A stretch of DNA of 33,742 nt, from positions 1-33,742 of the forward strand of contig JAUSPN010000061.1 of NCBI GenBank assembly GCA_030656555.1. Direction: 5' to 3'. This DNA is from Candidatus Desulfaltia sp. GTDB taxonomy: Bacteria; Desulfobacterota; Desulfobacteria; Desulfobacterales; ETH-SRB1. The notes beneath the pieces were generated by a model that searched no databases, was not told the DNA's origin, and saw nothing but the letters and a program-made list of their open reading frames with translations. Shown here piece after piece: positions 1 through 24,508 of this stretch. Made by a program: the position numbers and the translations under genes. The stretch's first letter is position 1. The number at the start of each line of letters is the position of its first letter.

Positions 1-354
1 CTTATCGCCTTCCTTAAACTCACCCATCAGGCGAACTACCTCGGCGGCTCGCTCCTTATCGCCTTCCTTAAACTCACCCATCAGACGACTTACCTCAACT
101 GCTCGGTCCGTATCGCCTTCTTTAAACTCACCCATCAGGCGAACTACCTCGGCGGCTCGCTCCTTATCGCCTTCCTTAAACTCACCCATCAGACGACTTA
201 CCTCAACTGCTCGGTCCGTATCGCCTTCCTTAAACTCACCCATCAGGCGACTTACATCATCTGCTCGCTCCTGACCTTCCTTTTGAAAACCTGATTTCAT
301 ATCTGATACTTCTTTTACTCGCTCCTGACCCGATGCCTTGCATTCTGATAACAG
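1..354 (-). repeat. 54-bp tandem coding repeat with 108-bp higher-order period
   Basis: Six full 54-bp units (31-84, 85-138, 139-192, 193-246, 247-300, 301-354) and a partial unit at 1-30. Units alternate between two near-identical types, B and A, giving a 108-bp superrepeat. The two A copies differ by a single visible base (cttt versus cctt near 119-122 and 227-230). The two units nearest the start codon are diverged. The array lies wholly inside the reading frame and keeps it open. Confidence 0.95.
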
Positions 355-435
355 GTTTTGCACATAATCCTTCCTGTCCCTATAGGCGCTGGCCATTTCA
401 TCTGCCAATCTTCTCAAATCGTCTGCATTTGCCAT
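1..435 (-). CDS. Partial repeat protein, GvpC-like candidate in gas-vesicle locus
   Basis: The ORF starts at an ATG at 435-433 behind a strong Shine-Dalgarno (AAGGAGG) and stays open to the window edge, so the C-terminus is missing. The N-terminal ~30 residues (MANADDLRRLADEMASAYRD...) resemble those of the 211-residue protein encoded at 654-1289: both have DL-x2-LA, an aromatic near position 18 and a basic stretch. The rest is a run of 18-residue units such as LMGEFKEGDTDRAVEVSR alternating with LMGEFKEGDKERAAEVVR. Eighteen residues make five alpha-helical turns, so the M/F/V positions would form one straight hydrophobic stripe on a very charged helix. GvpC proteins are also helical repeat proteins that bind the GvpA shell, but their repeats are about 33 residues, so GvpC-like is inference from position and architecture. 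It is the last visible gene of the minus-strand gas-vesicle run. Confidence 0.75.
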   Translation of the reverse strand, partial: MANADDLRRLADEMASAYRDRKDYVQNLLSECKASGQERVKEVSDMKSGFQKEGQERADDVSRLMGEFKEGDTDRAVEVSRLMGEFKEGDKERAAEVVRLMGEFKEGDTDRAVEVSRLMGEFKEGDKERAAEVVRLMGEFKEGDK

Positions 436-499
436 GTCGTTTTCCTCCTTAAAATTAATAATTTCTTATTAAAGACATGCCCGGGAATGCACACCTGCC

Positions 500-527
500 T
501 ATAGAGGGGTGACCTTACACCTCTATA
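500..527. terminator. Hairpin between the two repeat-protein genes
   Basis: TATAGAGGGGTG (500-511) pairs with CACCTCTATA (518-527) around a 6-base loop. No T-run follows on the minus strand, so it may be an intercistronic processing or stability hairpin and not a full terminator. The rest of 436-653 holds only this hairpin and the short-repeat array at its right end. Confidence 0.4.
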
Positions 528-602
528 CCCTCAAGGATGCCTTGAAAGTTTATGATGGCGAATCTGACATGAATACAGCTTACTCACGTAGATTGGCAAA
601 AT

Positions 603-664
603 TTGTCATTTGTCATTTGTCACTGGTTTCGTCCAATGACTAATGACCAGTGACTACTGACTGG
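603..664. repeat. Inverted pair of 7-bp repeat arrays (empty cassette)
   Basis: The left array repeats TTGTCAT/TTGTCAC with a 7-bp period. The right array (CCAATGACTAATGACCAGTG...) is its imperfect reverse complement. Only about 6 bp separate them. The right array supplies the last codons and stop of the gene at 654-1289 (Ala-Ser-Gln-stop). It has the same layout as the ORF-bearing cassettes elsewhere in the window but carries no ORF. Confidence 0.75.
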
Positions 665-1289
665 CTCTGGATACCGCCTGCCACTGGGTTTGTACTCTGT
701 CCCTGACCACTTCAAAGTCATCCAGCACCCTGGCCAGCTCGACATCACGATCGCTCTGCTGTGCTCTCATTGAATTAAGCATGACCTTGAAGTCTTTAAC
801 TTTAACCTCCTCTCCTTTTGATAGAAGTTTTTTAAGCCCGGCCCTGAATTCCTCCAGCTCGATCTGGAAGCATTTGAGTGTTTTAATTACTCTTTTCTCC
901 CGCTCTTTTTGTCGTATTGAAATATCCTCTTTGATGGCCTCAATATCTTCCAGACCGGAACGGCTTCCGCCTAAAACAATCTTCCTCAACCGGCTGACCA
1001 TTTCCTCTTCCTGCTCCTGGAAAAGCTTGAGGCTGTGTTCCGCCTCCTGCTCCCTCTGGCTGCGGCATTCGATGACATCACTAATCATGCGCTCAAAATC
1101 CTTTTTTCTCAGGCTTCCAGCCTTAGCAAGATTATCCCTCAGCCGGACAATCATATCCTCAAGCTCCGTCTGAAAGCTTTTAAGAAAATAATATGCCTGA
1201 CCCATCAAGGTGTTTACCGTCTTTACACGCATTTCATAGGAATCTATAATACTGTTGGCCAATGCCTTTAAGTCCTCTCCAGATCCCAT
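654..1289 (-). CDS. Three-repeat helical protein of gas-vesicle locus (GvpC-like candidate)
   Basis: A 211-residue, strongly charged, helical protein with no recognised catalytic motif. Residues 1-30 match the N-terminal motif of the partial protein at 1-435. Residues 36-86, 87-137 and 138-188 are three repeats of exactly 51 residues. They start LKSFQTELEDM, LKLFQEQEEEM and LKCFQIELEEF, and each has a basic central part and a charged end (RSQREQEAE, RQKEREKR, QQSDRDVEL). A partial fourth repeat begins at 189 (LDDFEVVRDR). The start follows AGAGGTG with good spacing. It lies downstream of gvpA on the same strand. By position and repeat design I propose a shell-binding or accessory gas-vesicle protein; sequence alone does not prove this. 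The C-terminal codons and stop come from a short-repeat array. Confidence 0.8.
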   Translation of the reverse strand: MGSGEDLKALANSIIDSYEMRVKTVNTLMGQAYYFLKSFQTELEDMIVRLRDNLAKAGSLRKKDFERMISDVIECRSQREQEAEHSLKLFQEQEEEMVSRLRKIVLGGSRSGLEDIEAIKEDISIRQKEREKRVIKTLKCFQIELEEFRAGLKKLLSKGEEVKVKDFKVMLNSMRAQQSDRDVELARVLDDFEVVRDRVQTQWQAVSRASQ

Positions 1290-1368: not shown

Positions 1369-1494
1369 ATTGAAGATTGAATATTGTCGATTGACTATTG
1401 AATGAAGTCGCTCCTGCCCGCCATTTTGAATAATAAAATAAAAAATTGGCAGAATTCCTTCATTCTTCATTCTTCATTCTTCATTCTTCAATTG
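1369..1494. repeat. Inverted pair of 7-bp repeat arrays (empty cassette)
   Basis: The left array (1369-1407) reads ATTGAAG-ATTGAAT-ATTGTCG-ATTGACT-ATTGAAT-GAAG. The right array (1458-1494) repeats CATTCTT with a 7-bp period and ends CAATTG, so its reverse complement is a GAATGAA array like the left one. About 50 bp without a gene lie between them. This is the main content of the gap between gvpA and the 211-residue gene; an AT-rich stretch fills the rest. Confidence 0.75.
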
Positions 1495-1669: not shown

Positions 1670-1876
1670 TTAAGCGGCCTCGGGTAACAGGCCAACAGCC
1701 TCAGCGTATTTCAAGAAAGTCTCAACGCCTGCGACCACAACTCTGGCCTCAATAGCGAGAAGCTCAATGCCGACCAGGGAAACCCTGACCCATGCATCGA
1801 CTACAACGCCCTTGTCGAGAATTCTATCGACAACCTCTACCAAACTTGAAGATGCTATTGCTTTTTCTACTGCCAT
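1670..1876 (-). CDS. gvpA: Gas vesicle structural protein GvpA
   Basis: Sixty-eight residues matching the very conserved GvpA fold: [20 protein letters not shown], then [20 protein letters not shown], then [20 protein letters not shown]. GvpA forms the ribbed protein wall of gas vesicles, which exclude water and give buoyancy. The length is normal for the family. The start has a near-perfect Shine-Dalgarno (AAAGGAGGTG), fitting a highly expressed structural protein. The gene is 27 bp downstream of a receiver-domain gene on the same strand and probably cotranscribed with it from the sigma-54 promoter near 2503. Other gas-vesicle genes (gvpN, gvpF/L, gvpK, gvpJ) are not in this window and may lie beyond the left edge. 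Confidence 0.97.
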
Positions 1877-1903: not shown

Positions 1904-2302
1904 TTACGAAGGAATGCCTTCTGCGGCATCCATTTTGCTCAGGGCTATTTTGCACAAATGTACAAGTTCCCTGATATCAAACGGTTTATCTAAAAACGCA
2001 AAAGCTCCGGCTTTCAAGAAAACTTCCCGCTTATCTATTAATGCAGAAATACCGATTGCCTCAGCCTTGCATCCATTTGATCTCATTTGATTAATAACTG
2101 AAATACCATTCATATCGGGAAGAATGTAGTTGATAATGGCCAACTTTGTTTGATGACATTTATTATCAAGCATGCTTATGGCTTCTTTGCCGGTCGTAAC
2201 TGCGTCAACTGAAAAACCTGCTTTTTCCAGAACATTTGCAATAGACCAAAGCATTTCTTCCGAATCCTCTACAATGAGTACTTGTGAACCACTTTTTTCC
2301 AT
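1904..2302 (-). CDS. Stand-alone receiver protein with Asn replacing phospho-Asp
   Basis: A 132-residue CheY-like domain with no output domain. The N-terminus (VLIVEDSEE) keeps the acidic pair (Glu12, Asp13), and FLDKPF keeps the conserved lysine and proline. At the phospho-acceptor position, however, AIINYILPDMNG has Asn58 (codon AAC) where Asp is expected, one base from GAC. Such receivers usually cannot be phosphorylated normally and act by protein contact or as fixed-state decoys. The gene is the first after the sigma-54 promoter and immediately precedes gvpA, so a role in controlling vesicle production is a fair inference. A weak Shine-Dalgarno precedes the ATG. Confidence 0.85.
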   Translation of the reverse strand: MEKSGSQVLIVEDSEEMLWSIANVLEKAGFSVDAVTTGKEAISMLDNKCHQTKLAIINYILPDMNGISVINQMRSNGCKAEAIGISALIDKREVFLKAGAFAFLDKPFDIRELVHLCKIALSKMDAAEGIPS

Positions 2303-2371
2303 TTAAATCGATTCTTTACTATTAACAGAAATTTGAAAACTCATAATTTGTAAAGAGACCTTACGGGAACT

Positions 2372-2458
2372 ACACACCCCGTCCGCTTCGCGTCCACCCC
2401 TCTCAAGAGGGGAATTTTTAAAGTCCCCTATAATAAGAGAGGATTTAGGGGTGTGTGT
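2372..2458. repeat. Palindromic MITE-like element in the gvp leader
   Basis: The ends ACACACCCC (2372-2380) and GGGGTGTGTGT (2448-2458) are inverted repeats. Internal pieces (CCCCTCTCAAGAGGGG) also fold back. There is no convincing ORF; a short reading frame across it encodes nothing recognisable. It lies between the predicted sigma-54 promoter and the receiver gene, so it would be part of the 5' leader of the gas-vesicle transcript. Confidence 0.65.
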
Positions 2459-2494
2459 TTTACGTTCAATATGTTTGTCTGCTATACAATGCAA

Positions 2495-2511
2495 AGCACT
2501 TCTCGTGCCAA
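2495..2511 (-). promoter_or_regulatory. Sigma-54 (-24/-12) promoter for receiver-gvpA genes
   Basis: On the minus strand the sequence reads TTGGCACGAGAAGTGCT. The -24 block TTGGCACG is consensus. The essential GG and GC dinucleotides are separated by exactly 10 bp, as the family needs. The -12 block is GTGCT in place of TTGCW. Transcription would start near 2484 and run into the receiver gene and gvpA. The NtrC-type activator gene is directly upstream (2625-4055), which makes a functional pairing likely. No activator-binding sites were identified. Confidence 0.7.
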
Positions 2512-2624
2512 TAATGGATTTTTTTTGACATCTATCTGAATTTATAACTAAATTTAACAAAAAGGCATGTAATAATGTGACAAATAAAGATTGGAATTAT
2601 GACAGGTGGTATGGCGTTGCCACC

Positions 2625-4055
2625 CTAACTGAGGAAAGGGTGGGATAGTATTTGACAGGTCTTAATCTTTCTAAGCAAAGTCTTATAATCGATGCCGAGT
2701 TTGCGGGCTGCCTCGCTTTTATTCCCTTTTGTTTCGGTTAACATCTGAGTTATTATCTTTTTTTCCACAGTCTGGGAGATAGACTTAACTATATCCGAAA
2801 GGGTTTTTCCCTTATCATCGTCAGAAACAGAGGCTTTTATTTCTGAAGTGCAATGTATGATATTAGAATCAAATACAAAGTGCATTGGTTTAATTGAAAC
2901 ATTTTCCTCGCTTATAAGCACGGCCTGGCGTATAACATTTCGCAATTCACGAACATTTCCGGGCCATGTATATGAGGCCAGCAATTGAAGAGCTTCCTTA
3001 GAAATCCCCTGAGATTTTTTTTTGAGTTCCTGCTGAACTTCATTCATAAATCTATAAGCAAGATATGGGATATCCTCTTTTCTTTCTCTGAGCGCTGGAA
3101 CTTTAATGGAAAATTCCTTTAAGCGGAAATATAGGTCGGAACGGAACTTCCCGGACTCTATATCTTTTTCCAGAGGCTGATTTGTAGCTGCAATAATTCG
3201 AACCTGAACAAATTTAGCTTTTCTTGATCCCAATCTTTGAATGCAACGCTCCTGCATTACTCGAAGAATTTTTTGCTGCGCCTGATATGGTAGATTGCCG
3301 ATTTCATCTAAAAACAGAGTGCCTTTGTCAGCCAGTTCAAACTGCCCTGGTTTGTCGGTGTAAGCTCCGGTAAAGGCTCCCTTCATATAACCGAACAGTT
3401 CGCTTTCAATAAGACTATCAGGAATTGCGCCACAGTCCACTGCTACAAAAGGCCCTTTCTTTACCTCACTCAGTTCGTGAATCGAGCGAGCTACAAGCTC
3501 CTTGCCGGTACCACTTTCTCCTTCTATCAAAACAGTAAATATTGTTGGGGCAACCTTCTCTACAAGCTTAAAAAGTTCACTGATTCGCTTGCTACTACCC
3601 ATAAGCTTGCAAAGTGATGTCCGTTCATTCAAGACATTTCTTAAACGCTCAACCTCATAAACAAGTTCCTGCTTTTCCAGAGCGCGTTTAATTGTAAACA
3701 GGAGGTCATTGTTATCTATCGGTTTTGTAACATAATCATATACACCAATCCTCATAGCATCTACGGCAAACTTTATCTCAGCATAGGCTGTGATCATAAT
3801 AATCGGTAAAACCGGAATAATTTTCTTTATATCTGCAGAAACAGAAATACCATCACGTCCAGGCATCCGGTAATCTAATAAAATTAAATCAGGAACATAT
3901 TTCTCCAGCAACTTCAGCGCTTCTTCACCATCCTGCGCTTGAGTCACTTTATATCCATCTGCCTGAAGGATATTTCCAATTGCCCAGCGAAAATCCTGAT
4001 CGTCATCAACCACCAGTATATTTTTTTGTAATGAGGCTCGATTTTCAACAGACAT
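2625..4055 (-). CDS. NtrC-family sigma-54 response regulator
   Basis: A transcriptional activator with three domains. The receiver (~1-120) has acidic pocket VVDDDQD and phospho-acceptor Asp61 in DLILLDYRMPGRDG. The AAA+ sigma-54 interaction domain (~140-375) has Walker A GESGTGKE, the sigma-54 contact loop GAFTGA at 226-231, and Walker B GTLFLDEIG. The C-terminal Fis-type helix-turn-helix is NKSEAARKLGIDYKTLLRKI. I start at the ATG at 4055 (476 residues) because GGGAG lies 8 bases upstream; an in-frame ATG at 4073 has no ribosome site. It is probably the cognate regulator of the kinase at 4497-6425, from which a four-helix-bundle cassette now separates it. The likely target is the sigma-54 promoter at 2495-2511. 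Confidence 0.93.
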   Translation of the reverse strand: MSVENRASLQKNILVVDDDQDFRWAIGNILQADGYKVTQAQDGEEALKLLEKYVPDLILLDYRMPGRDGISVSADIKKIIPVLPIIMITAYAEIKFAVDAMRIGVYDYVTKPIDNNDLLFTIKRALEKQELVYEVERLRNVLNERTSLCKLMGSSKRISELFKLVEKVAPTIFTVLIEGESGTGKELVARSIHELSEVKKGPFVAVDCGAIPDSLIESELFGYMKGAFTGAYTDKPGQFELADKGTLFLDEIGNLPYQAQQKILRVMQERCIQRLGSRKAKFVQVRIIAATNQPLEKDIESGKFRSDLYFRLKEFSIKVPALRERKEDIPYLAYRFMNEVQQELKKKSQGISKEALQLLASYTWPGNVRELRNVIRQAVLISEENVSIKPMHFVFDSNIIHCTSEIKASVSDDDKGKTLSDIVKSISQTVEKKIITQMLTETKGNKSEAARKLGIDYKTLLRKIKTCQILSHPFLS

Positions 4056-4080
4056 TTTTCTTACTCCCTTCATCTTGCGT

Positions 4081-4551
4081 AACTACTCAGGTTGTCTGGT
4101 TCACGGTTCACGGTTCACGGTTGGCTACTTTGCACTTTTCATATTTTTTGAGATAGTTGATAAATCCACGAACAGCAGCACGTGTTCGTCTGGCCTGCTC
4201 GTAAACATCTTTGAATTCGTTGGGCGATATGTACTCTTCATCCAAAGCGACATAGAGTTCGCTCTGAACTTCCGTGCAAGACCGCTTGGCGTATCGCAAG
4301 AACCGGACAAACTCCGCATTCGTCTCGGAATCAAAACCTTCCGCAATATTATGCATCGATGATCCAGCAGCATCTTGTATTTGTCTCTTCAGCCCGTAGT
4401 CCTTCGCAAATTCCGGCTTCTTTGTCAGACGGTACACTTTTCGAGCCAATTCACGTGCCAGTTGCCATGCCTCAATATCTTCAAACCGTTCAATCTTCAT
4501 CGCTCTCTAACCTTGAACCGTGAACCATTGAACCGTGAACCTGAGCAGTTA
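4081..4551 (-). mobile_element. Four-helix-bundle cassette 1 with inverted GGTTCAC arrays
   Basis: The ends are imperfect inverted repeats: AACTACTCAGGTT at 4081-4093, and AACCTGAGCAGTT at 4539-4551. Inside these are arrays of GGTTCAC (4098-4122) and the opposing TGAACCG/TGAACCA type (4509-4541). The single ORF (4108-4500) begins just inside one array and stops inside the other. The cassette splits the kinase and regulator genes and its right arm is translated as the tail of the kinase. No transposase is encoded. The mobile label is inferred from the duplicate at 13987-14497 with the same layout in an unrelated context. Confidence 0.6.
4108..4500 (-). CDS. Four-helix bundle protein (S23 / 23S intervening-sequence type), copy 1
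   Basis: A 130-residue protein of the four-helix-bundle family first known from ORFs in 23S rRNA intervening sequences (TIGR02436-type). The hallmarks are ERFEDIEAWQLARELARKVY at the start, a central LKRQIQDAAGSSMHNIAEGF, and a charged helical C-terminus with FRY/FLRYAKRSCTE. The Avd accessory proteins of diversity-generating retroelements share this fold, but no reverse transcriptase is nearby. The function is unknown; nucleic-acid binding is plausible from the basic surface. About ten residues differ from the copy at 14029-14430. The start overlaps the kinase stop by 4 bp. The stop TGA lies within a TGAACC repeat unit. Confidence 0.9.
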   Translation of the reverse strand: MKIERFEDIEAWQLARELARKVYRLTKKPEFAKDYGLKRQIQDAAGSSMHNIAEGFDSETNAEFVRFLRYAKRSCTEVQSELYVALDEEYISPNEFKDVYEQARRTRAAVRGFINYLKKYEKCKVANREP

Positions 4552-11860: not shown

Positions 11861-11880
11861 GAGCGTAGCGACTCATTAAC

Positions 11881-11937
11881 TTTAGCTCACTTTAGGCACT
11901 TTAGCTCACTTTAGGCACTTTAGTTCACTTTAGGCAC
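11881..11937. repeat. Three tandem 19-bp repeats
   Basis: TTTAGCTCACTTTAGGCAC is repeated three times head to tail (11881, 11900, 11919), the third with one change (GTTCAC). A degenerate fourth (TCGTAACTTTAGTCAC) follows. Non-coding. Confidence 0.85.
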
Positions 11938-11959
11938 TCGTAACTTTAGTCACTTAAAT

Positions 11960-11994
11960 AACCGTGAACTGTGAACCGTGAACTGTGAACCGTG
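11960..11994. repeat. Orphan array of 7-bp GTGAAC[CT] repeats
   Basis: Five 7-bp units (AACCGTG, AACTGTG, AACCGTG, AACTGTG, AACCGTG) lie just upstream of the secreted helix-hairpin-helix gene. They are the same repeat as the arms of the four-helix-bundle cassettes at 4.1 and 14.0 kb, but there is no ORF and no opposing arm. Probably a solo remnant. Confidence 0.75.
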
Positions 11995-13986: not shown

Positions 13987-14497
13987 GGTTCAACGGTTCA
14001 CGGTTCACGGGTTCAAGGTTGGAGAGCGATGAAAATTGAACGTTTTGAAGATATTGAGGCTTGGCAGCTGGCACGTGAATTAGCTCGAAAAGTGTACCGT
14101 TTAACAAAGAAACCGAGATTTGCGAAGGACTACGGGTTGAAGAGACAGATACAGGATGCAGCCGGATCATCGATGCATAATATCGCCGAAGGTTTCGATT
14201 CCGAGACGAATGCGGAGTTCATAAGGTTTTTACGATACGCTAAGCGGTCTTGCACAGAAGTTCAGAGCGAACTCTATCTCGCTTTGGATGAAGGGTACAT
14301 ATTGCCCGATGAATTTAAAGATGTTTACGAACATGCCAGACGAACGCGTACTACTGTTCGTGCATTTATCAACTATCTCAAAAAATATGAAAAGAATAAG
14401 TCAACCAACCCTGAACCATTGAACCATTGAACCATTGAACCATTGAACCATTGAACCATTGAACCATTGAACCTTGAACCATTGAACCATTGAACCC
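13987..14497 (+). mobile_element. Four-helix-bundle cassette 2 with inverted GGTTCA arrays
   Basis: The left array (13987-14020) repeats GGTTCAACGGTTCACGGTTC; the right array (14412-14497) is about ten 7-8 bp TGAACCAT units. The arms are inverse in sense. The ORF starts 9 bp after the left array and ends in the right one. The right array also supplies the TTG that opens the next gene. The cassette separates gmd from the fucose synthase gene, normally close partners, which argues that it is an insertion. Confidence 0.65.
14029..14430 (+). CDS. Four-helix bundle protein (S23 / 23S intervening-sequence type), copy 2
   Basis: A 133-residue paralogue of the protein at 4108-4500. The first 28 residues are identical and ~90% match over 122, with the same LKRQIQDAAGSSMHNIAEGF core. 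The ribosome site GGAG is the last part of the left array. The C-terminus (NPEPLNH-stop) is translated from the right array, so the two copies differ only in how far each reads into repeat DNA. The function is unknown. High identity in two unrelated operons points to recent duplication or transfer within the genome. Confidence 0.9.
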   Translation: MKIERFEDIEAWQLARELARKVYRLTKKPRFAKDYGLKRQIQDAAGSSMHNIAEGFDSETNAEFIRFLRYAKRSCTEVQSELYLALDEGYILPDEFKDVYEHARRTRTTVRAFINYLKKYEKNKSTNPEPLNH

Positions 14498-23299: not shown

Positions 23300-23428
23300 G
23301 GGGGAAAAGTCCGCAGGCTAAAAAAAATAAATTGACAGGCGGTCAAGCATGATGGTTTCATAAAAAGTCGAAAATACCGTTTGCGAAGCTATCAAAACTT
23401 ACATAAAACTAAAAAAGGAGGTAACCCC

Positions 23429-24508
23429 ATGACTGATCAAAAAGAAATACCCGGTGTCTCCATGAGCAACACCAAAAAGGAAATGATAGAAGCTTATAAA
23501 GCTACGAAGCAGCAATTAGAGGCCACGGAGAAACAGTTGCTTGATGCTGAAAAGGTTCGCAAGCAGATGGAAAAAAAGGCTGCAGAGGCAGTCGCAGAGG
23601 CTCAGACCTCGCAGGATCCGCTGCAGCGGCTGCATGATCTTAAGGGCGCTTTCAGCCGTGAATTAACCGGCCTTGCAGAACAGTTTGAAGCGGAAATCGA
23701 AACTTATAAAAAGATTCAGACCGCAGTCAAAGCCAAACAGGAGGAGCTTCAGAATATTTACGAAGTGGAGACTGCTGCATCTGATCTTGTTGCTTTGATT
23801 GCTTCCCAGCAGGTCCGCAAGGAAGAATTCAAAACCGAGATGGAAAAACGCAGAACGGAATTTGAAGAAGAAATGCAAGAAGCCCGCTCAAACTGGGACA
23901 GGGAAAAGTCTGAGCAGGATCAGGAAATAGAGGAGCAGGCAGCGTTTCTCAAAAAACAGAGGCAGCGGGAAAAAGAAGATTACGAATACACGTTTGCACG
24001 GGAAAAAGATCAGCGTAAAAACGAACTTGAAGATCAACTAAAAGCCCTTGAAAAGGAAATTATCACAAAACGCGAGGCTTTTGGACAAGAACTCCAGCAG
24101 CGCAGAAACGAACTGGATAACCGTGAAAAGGTTATTTCCGAACATGAGCAGGTTTTTTCAGAGTTGCAAAAGCAGGTGGAAACCTTCCCGCAGACACTGG
24201 AAAAGCAGGTTCGAGCGGCAAAAGAGAGCGTCAGTGAAAGACTTGCCAGCGATTTTGAAAATAACCGACTACTTATGGAATCAAAATTTGAAGGTGAAAA
24301 GAACGTGTTTAAAGGCAGGATTGAGTCGCTCGAAACAATGGTGAAACTTCAGACAACTCAGATTGAAGATCTGTCCAGAAAGCATGAACAGGCATATGAA
24401 AAGGTTCAGGATATAGCCAACCGAGCCGTAGCTGCCGCAAAACGGGAGATCGTTTCAATGCCTTACAGACCTGGTTTTACAGGTAAAGACGAAGAACACG
24501 GCAACTGA
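23429..24508 (+). CDS. Long coiled-coil protein
   Basis: A 359-residue, highly charged protein that is almost wholly alpha-helical coiled coil from ~15 to ~340 (for example KQQLEATEKQLLDAEKVRKQ). It has no signal peptide or membrane segment and a short non-helical tail (MPYRPGFTGKDEEHGN). It is similar in style to hypothetical coiled-coil proteins found in Desulfobacterota; no function is known. The ATG at 23429 follows AAAGGAGGT; a start at 23381 is rejected. It lies between the ATPase pseudogene and the EPS regulator gene. It could be cytoskeletal or scaffold-like; that is speculation. Confidence 0.85.
   Translation: MTDQKEIPGVSMSNTKKEMIEAYKATKQQLEATEKQLLDAEKVRKQMEKKAAEAVAEAQTSQDPLQRLHDLKGAFSRELTGLAEQFEAEIETYKKIQTAVKAKQEELQNIYEVETAASDLVALIASQQVRKEEFKTEMEKRRTEFEEEMQEARSNWDREKSEQDQEIEEQAAFLKKQRQREKEDYEYTFAREKDQRKNELEDQLKALEKEIITKREAFGQELQQRRNELDNREKVISEHEQVFSELQKQVETFPQTLEKQVRAAKESVSERLASDFENNRLLMESKFEGEKNVFKGRIESLETMVKLQTTQIEDLSRKHEQAYEKVQDIANRAVAAAKREIVSMPYRPGFTGKDEEHGN

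Follow-up and report, generated by a model that had tools for sequence, protein, structure and literature searches.

A putative GvpC-like protein of 18-residue repeats in a gas-vesicle locus of Candidatus Desulfaltia

The stretch of DNA analysed here (the window) comprises 33,742 nucleotides of Candidatus Desulfaltia sp. (contig JAUSPN010000061.1 of assembly GCA_030656555.1). At its beginning, on the minus strand, a sigma-54 response regulator, a receiver protein, gvpA, a 211-aa helical protein and an array protein follow each other in this order, with the array gene being the second gene after gvpA. An earlier note, made from the sequence alone, had placed the array in a gas-vesicle locus, which GvpA at 1670-1876 confirms. 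The features are as follows.

1..435, minus strand: putative GvpC-like repeat protein, residues 1-145 seen (ATG at 435, open at 1, contig end; complete at 355 aa in the relative L060)
328..435, minus strand: conserved N-terminal segment, residues 1-36, starting MANADDLRRLADEMASAYRDRK (near-identical in L060, recognisable in L061 and L069)
4..327, minus strand: six 18-residue units, residues 37-144 (unit table, DNA identities, Tandem Repeats Finder)
219..4, minus strand: A-B-A-B alternating units, the last four visible (unit DNA identities)
654..1289, minus strand: 211-aa helical protein directly after gvpA, paralogous to the array protein and weakly repetitive, with a unit of 51 residues (period 51, score 121 vs. 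shuffle 41; orthologues recognised by the profile of the array family; alignment A1)
1670..1876, minus strand: gvpA, rib protein (PF00741, E 2.9e-16)
1904..2302, minus strand: receiver-domain protein adjoining gvpA (PF00072, E 1.2e-18)
2625..4073, minus strand: sigma-54 response regulator (PF00158, PF00072, PF02954)

The array gene is a reading frame of 145 aa (435..1) with no stop, and since the window starts at the first base of contig C32, in an assembly of 107 contigs, the gene is cut by the assembly. Tandem Repeats Finder reported two periods, one of 54 bp with 5.0 copies (score 411, window 1-272) and one of 108 bp with 2.5 copies (95% matches, score 491, window 3-272). Compared with itself at a shift of 18, the array scored 335, the 95% level of the shuffles being 39. 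The earlier reading of the 54-bp repeats as 18-residue units of near-identical copies is thus borne out, with the DNA of like units being 98-100% identical (unit 3 vs. 5 100%, unit 4 vs. 6 98%) and A vs. B 83-85%, where unit A is TDRAVEVSRLMGEFKEGD and unit B is KERAAEVVRLMGEFKEGD in the last four units. The alternation of two unit types with a 36-residue superperiod, also proposed then, holds for the last four visible units only, because units 1 and 2 lie outside the pattern (identity is 85-88% between unit 2 and units 3-6, but no more than 48-53% between unit 1 and the rest). Every near-identical unit of the window has Gly-Asp at its boundary, and in L060 this is Gly-Pro. Plus-strand ORFs across the array stretch were taken as shadows of the repeat.

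The sigma-54 response regulator (2625..4073) is likely, judging by sequence, the regulator of the gvp cluster; reading of ORFs found a similar one preceding gvpA in L040, L060 and L062. Before gvpA a receiver protein is paired with a sigma-54 regulator (1904-4073), as it is in some of the relatives (e.g., L062), which suggests that buoyancy is governed by a two-component system. Contig C65 of the same genome begins with further gvp genes, read from the ORFs as GvpK-like, GvpF/L-like, GvpA-domain (with a PF00741 match), DnaK-like and ArsA-like. Queries from L060 recovered neither gvpN nor the 3' end of the array gene in the source assembly, which is rated 100% complete, so the window array gene cannot be completed; the missing piece with gvpN and the array C-terminus probably sits between the contig ends of C32 and C65. 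No family match was found in the two congeners searched (G333, G351), and a GvpA-domain match is present in 14 of 198 genomes of the phylum. A search for a second genome of the same species found none, the nearest loci being approx. 83-91% identical over long DNA blocks.

Several other features of the neighborhood were also recorded. Two ORFs of approx. 130 aa in the window (4108-4500, minus strand, and 14029-14430, plus strand) have near-identical starts and lie close to minisatellites of 7-15 bp; similar-looking ORFs occur near other gvp genes (L006:1539-1910, L062:4236-4601), and we take all of them to belong to the S23/intervening-sequence family of four-helix-bundle proteins. Intergenic minisatellites are found at window 1458-1490, 11879-11994 and 14412-14496 (CTTCATT; ACTTTAGCTCACTTTAGGC; AACCGTGAACTGTG; TGAACCAT), and similarity to window 1439-1494 is found again on C65 (L006). 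At L006:1925-3043 and L051:4639-5757, approx. 300 extra residues are joined to a GvpA/GvpJ domain, an unusual addition to a gas-vesicle protein, and the extension in L006 ends in CxxC...CxxC.

A complete relative is in L060, a Desulfobacteraceae MAG whose 211-aa protein is 85% identical to that of the window. Its array protein (355 aa) begins with the near-identical N-terminus, continues with 10-11 18-residue units of the ERAKEVADLISEFKAEGP type and a segment whose last residues are AWKELLATMQS, and closes with an acidic linker followed by a winged-helix domain at the C-terminus (residues approx. 297-355); it is 57% identical to the visible array protein of the window. Window 320-597, covering the N-terminal end and the upstream region, has 89.6% DNA identity to L060, while the units, homogeneous inside each genome, reach at best 59% DNA identity between the two; copies alike within a genome and diverged between genomes are what concerted evolution would give. 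One could also suppose that the visible array is mostly neutral slippage or an assembly artefact and that the unit length has no meaning, given that identical 54-bp copies are located at a contig end and that adjoining window copies differ by 10 synonymous and 28 non-synonymous codon changes, which shows no constraint. We consider this very improbable: the other genome carries the same 18-residue unit 10-11 times within a contig of 48 kb, its adjoining copies differ by 30 synonymous and 29 non-synonymous codon changes, and throughout the family the repeat lengths fall close to whole numbers of helical turns (see below).

The family is closely tied to gas-vesicle loci. One scan of 84,980 genomes with the 211-aa family alignment (A1) gave 29 loci (L060-L088, each counted once), whose record labels include Desulfobacteraceae, Nitrospira, Elusimicrobia, Planctomycetes, Patescibacteria and others; gvpA is present in 28, gvpN in 25 and at least one of them in 29 of 29. 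With the array-family profile (A3), 58 of the 771 mechanical ORFs (at least 70 aa) of these loci score at least 15 bits, a line drawn after the scores were known, and the best ORF elsewhere scores 10.8. All 58 lie on the same strand between gvpA and gvpN (with the contig end as a limit where one gene is missing); 9 of them match by construction, being in the alignment (L060, L061, L063, L064, L065, L066, L067, L069 and L070, the sequence of the last being that of L056), and some of the 58 are overlapping ORFs or fragments of a single gene (L064, L084, L086). In every one of the 24 loci with both gvpA and gvpN there are one to three family ORFs between them, and at least two in 23. The same loci were apparently reached twice in the cases of L056/L070, L052/L069, L054/L068, L064/L111 and L074/L116. 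The window locus itself shows only the gvpA side of this slot, and in relatives the array gene lies between the paralogue and gvpN.

Because the 29 loci were found through the 211-aa paralogue, an independent set was needed. Among 13 loci reached via PF00741 and a gvpA motif, a profile match lies beside gvpA in 12, and after removal of the five that contributed to the profiles, in 7 of 8, the weakest best match having E 1.1e-4 (L050). The exception, L047, has no profile match, although the ORF after gvpA is similar by eye; L042, with two matches after a gvpA that the motif missed, was left out of the 13. Homologues regularly found away from gvp genes, which the earlier note had named as refuting its reading, were not seen in the 29 loci, and the outcome is in favour of that reading. 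The array-protein searches also gave weak matches in G000 C13 (E 0.011), G076 (E 4.6e-7) and G022 (E 7.7e-4), the last two genomes not being among the 14 with a GvpA match; these were rejected as unrelated, reading as chemoreceptor-like, TLTNSGTL-type repeat and ATP-synthase-b-like proteins. The match in a third genome of that search, G182, adjoins gvpA and belongs to the 211-aa family. Matches to nebulin, VASP tetramer, SseD, apolipoprotein and other Pfam/NCBIfam repeat models were inconsistent across relatives and were taken as composition-driven.

As regards known proteins of the shell, the GvpC repeat model PF01304 has no match in the source genome at E up to 10, nor in eight scanned family proteins (the array protein, the 211-aa protein and six relatives), while the positive control, Anabaena GvpC, gave five matching stretches. 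No Pfam/NCBIfam gas-vesicle model matches the array protein or the 211-aa protein, in agreement with the earlier remark that neither belongs to a family that could be named. The A3 profile scores 19.2 bits against Nostoc GvpC, 12.8 bits against Anabaena GvpC and 26.8 bits against the Methylocella slot protein, with none of 200 block-shuffles as good in each case; it does not find Halobacterium GvpC (1.3 bits, 8 of 200 shuffles as good) or the proteins of Spartinivicinus (3.2 bits, 3 of 200) and Octadecabacter (-3.2 bits, 37 of 200). That no shuffle is as good is alone not proof, because the control at window 23381-24508 (-14.4 bits) also beats all its shuffles; nine control rows of charged ORFs (one ORF being included twice, as L009 and L058, together with two near-copies) reach at most 6.1 bits with A3, and 197 ORFs from seven non-gvp loci of the rejected weak matches at most 4.0 bits with A3 and 7.2 bits with A1. 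An hhalign comparison of A3 with Anabaena GvpC was not significant (probability 0.6%), a PDB sequence search with Anabaena GvpC found nothing, and the conserved GvpC residues F11, L12, R19 and Q26 are, by eye, out of register in the 33-mer of L069. The gene between gvpA and gvpN is annotated gvpC in the Nostoc and Halobacterium plasmid records and as a hypothetical protein in those of Octadecabacter (where there is also an opposite-strand ORF), Methylocella and Spartinivicinus; on the Thiodictyon plasmid no gvpN was found within 4 kb.

Taken together, the position in the gvpC slot, the architecture and the weak profile signal lead us to conclude that the array protein is probably part of the outer shell of these gas vesicles, a GvpC-like protein though a divergent one. 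Kinship of the array family to cyanobacterial GvpC is suggested, not proven, by these comparisons; our claim is that the array protein would work like GvpC, and membership of PF01304 is not claimed. The idea of a new type of shell protein, raised in the earlier note, is supported only in part, as position, architecture and profile signal point to GvpC.

The 211-aa protein is, on sequence grounds, a paralogue of the array protein, since it has the 51-residue period (121 vs. 41) and the profile of the array family picks up its orthologues. It could itself be the true equivalent of GvpC, with the array protein having another job, e.g., linking or tethering vesicles: its gene lies directly after gvpA and is less variable (85% identity between window and L060, against 57% for the array protein), the array is homogenised per genome (the 59% above), and the lone slot gene of L078 scores 139.0 with the 211-aa profile and 82.7 with the array profile. 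The lone slot gene of L055, on the other hand, scores 83.4 with the array profile and 22.6 with the 211-aa profile, L041, L044, L045 and L046 are matched by the array profile only, and cyanobacterial GvpC is found by A3 and not by A1 (-1.3 bits for Nostoc GvpC). This exchange of roles appears to us quite unlikely.

The winged helix is an unusual feature for a strap on the shell and counts against a GvpC-like role. In the AlphaFold2 model of the L060 protein (14-sequence alignment, mean pLDDT 65.7) helices extend through residue 251, with block pLDDT 46-77 in the array, and the winged helix is confident, with block pLDDT 92-96 from residue 301 to the end. Foldseek agrees on its fold class, with a best E of 0.013 (no match at E 0.001) and target-normalised TM of 0.85-0.89 for several Z-alpha/Z-beta chains. 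One may accordingly see the array protein as an assembly factor or local regulator, in which the winged helix is the working part (binding DNA or GvpN) and the array a spacer; the most confident part of the model resembles the DNA-binding domains of MarR and Z-alpha, and the long acidic linker of L060 fits as well. We regard this as unlikely, given how weak the Foldseek E-values are and given that the short orthologues L055, L056 and L113, which by reading have no winged helix, keep the helical part and the gvpA-gvpN slot. C-termini similar to the winged helix of L060 were read in L061, L063, L065, L069, L110, L112, L081, L082, L084 and L086. For a GvpC-like protein, the winged helix may bind GvpN or other assembly factors, by analogy with the C-terminus of haloarchaeal GvpC, which binds GvpN and GvpO according to passages of PMC9372576.

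The 18-residue unit is one of several in the family. The top repeat period is 51 in L061, 65 in L063, L064 and L065, 44 in L110 (a contig of the genome with L062 that carries only the C-terminal part of the gene), and 33, by self-comparison, in L069 (score 239 vs. shuffle 43), L074, L079, L082, L085, L113, L044, L045 and L048. The earlier note had likened the 36-residue superperiod to the 33-residue GvpC repeat; the real link lies elsewhere, as orthologues have true 33-mers and one 51-mer aligns as 33 + 18. One gap suffices to align the 33-mer of L069 to the 51-mer of L061 (score 53, against 9 for the best of 1000 shuffles), and its size of 18 is dictated by the two lengths. The inserted 18 residues of L061 (ERGTYIENLLAEFDKVHQ) score 21-22 against units of the window and L060 (0 of 2000 shuffles each as good), 23 against L067 (1 of 2000) and 2 against a segment of L063 (106 of 2000), results which are weakened, though still standing, by the register having been picked by eye from 18 possible ones. 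The 51-mer thus has the look of a 33-mer extended by a single module of 18 residues.

With a turn taken as 3.64 residues, nine repeat lengths (18, 33, 44, 51, 58, 65, 66, 69, 73) lie close to whole helical turns, the worst being off by 0.143 turn, and none of 5000 random sets was as good (34 of 5000 for a five-length subset); these counts are not probabilities, because the lengths are interdependent (51 = 33 + 18; 66 = 2 x 33) and any amphipathic helix, when compared with itself, scores better at shifts of whole turns. The nine were also hand-picked, from ORFs that had passed a self-comparison filter for charge (above 0.33) and for score (more than 1.3 times the shuffle level), by which other ORFs were dropped. 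The top periods 14, 25, 26, 40 and 49 were omitted, of which 40 (L076, 105 vs. 34) and 25 (L078, 112 vs. 46) are not weak, and 14 belongs to small ORFs after gvpN; 25, 26 and 40 fit 3.64 within 0.143 turn, while 49 (L068, 47 vs. 34) does not. Against the GvpA spacing the nine lengths fit more poorly: the worst is off by 0.268 subunit, which 172 of 5000 random sets could equal, and 65 residues make 7.68 GvpA subunits at 12.7 A, i.e., off-lattice. With these caveats, the earlier proposal that helical turns set the unit length agrees with the repeat lengths of the relatives.

The unbroken straight helix with a continuous hydrophobic stripe, which had been expected from exactly five turns, is not supported. 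The strongest hydrophobic harmonic of the window array is at 3.0 residues (14.5), followed by 3.6 (10.7), the units have Gly-Asp boundaries, and the array helix in the L060 model is broken at 7 of 9 Gly-Pro boundaries. The AlphaFold2 model of the window fragment has helices at 2-69 and 73-143 with a single break at 70-72, at low confidence (mean pLDDT 70). In L060 the strongest harmonic is at 3.6 residues (27.4), and the peaks of L063 and L061 are at 3.62 and 3.64, with L069 having none above shuffles.

In Anabaena, cryo-ET places the GvpC helix along the GvpA ribs (passages of PMC10185304), and the contact between GvpC and the ribs is known from docking and density at approx. 8 A, according to passages of PMC9994262 and PMC10185304. 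In the same passages, Huber et al. reason that perfectly helical 33-residue repeats would sit rotated by 60 degrees to each other; the figures in the former are a GvpA spacing of approx. 12.7 A at the GvpC site, 49.5 A for 33 residues and the 60 degree rotation. We propose that the array would likewise form an amphipathic helix, on which A5, V8, M12 and F15 of each unit share one face, and that it would run along the GvpA ribs on the outside with this face down, stiffening the shell. Computed with those figures (PMC9994262), an 18-residue unit measures 27 A or 2.13 GvpA subunits with zero rotation, so each unit would span about two subunits (2 x 12.7 A) and, because 18 residues make exactly five turns, the face would stay down from unit to unit, whereas the 33-residue unit of GvpC rotates by 60 degrees. 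The Gly-Asp or Gly-Pro boundary could take up the 6% excess length. Since the repeat number of GvpC in Microcystis goes with vesicle width (passages of PMC9501494), array length may also tune vesicle shape.

More tentatively, as a possibility that we hold for somewhat doubtful, GvpC would belong to a wide family of outer-shell straps, for the most part unannotated, in which the length of the repeat changes by whole turns (the nine lengths above), where selection keeps the shell-facing face and not the register with the GvpA lattice, the 18-mer is the minimal drift-free unit, and the 33-mer and 51-mer differ by one such module. A natural strap of 18-residue units, with no rotation and a 6% length mismatch, would make lattice register vs. 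helix phase directly testable. The hypothetical proteins between gvpA and gvpN in three plasmid records point to an annotation gap. For vesicles that serve as ultrasound reporters, the stiffness of the shell could be adjusted through straps of a different unit length.

Among other known systems, apolipoproteins A1/A4/E have amphipathic helices of 11/22 residues as belts round a curved hydrophobic surface. The sub-threshold Pfam matches of L041, L069 and L063 to this domain (PF01442, 13.7-37.2 bits against a cut-off of 90) are a likeness of design, not kinship. In the sulfate reducers, the gvp cluster of Desulfobacterium vacuolatum was expressed in E. coli, and the passages of PMC10344784 seen describe no GvpC of that cluster; among the matches listed from open-licence PMC literature (on GvpC repeats, D. 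vacuolatum, gvp clusters of these phyla and sulfate reducers), no title or abstract opening describes the array family or an 18-residue unit. Haloarchaeal GvpC (Halobacterium pNRC100, WP_010890518.1) shares the order gvpA-gvpC-gvpN and the layout, with an acidic region and then a globular domain at the C-terminus following the helical repeats (passages of PMC9372576), but it differs in its repeats of 32-40 aa (passages of PMC9501494; top period 38 in Halobacterium GvpC), in having a zinc-finger motif at the C-terminus and no winged helix there, and in a profile match that is not significant. Unlike cyanobacterial GvpC (PF01304; Anabaena P09413, Nostoc sphaeroides WP_118171794.1), the array protein has an 18-residue unit in the window, as also in L060, and no PF01304 match, its complete close relatives carry a winged helix and an acidic linker, and there are mostly two or three paralogous slot genes (23 of 24 loci). 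With cyanobacterial GvpC it shares the slot between gvpA and gvpN, charged helical tandem repeats and a weak but specific profile match, and some of the array orthologues have 33-residue repeats, as in Nostoc GvpC.
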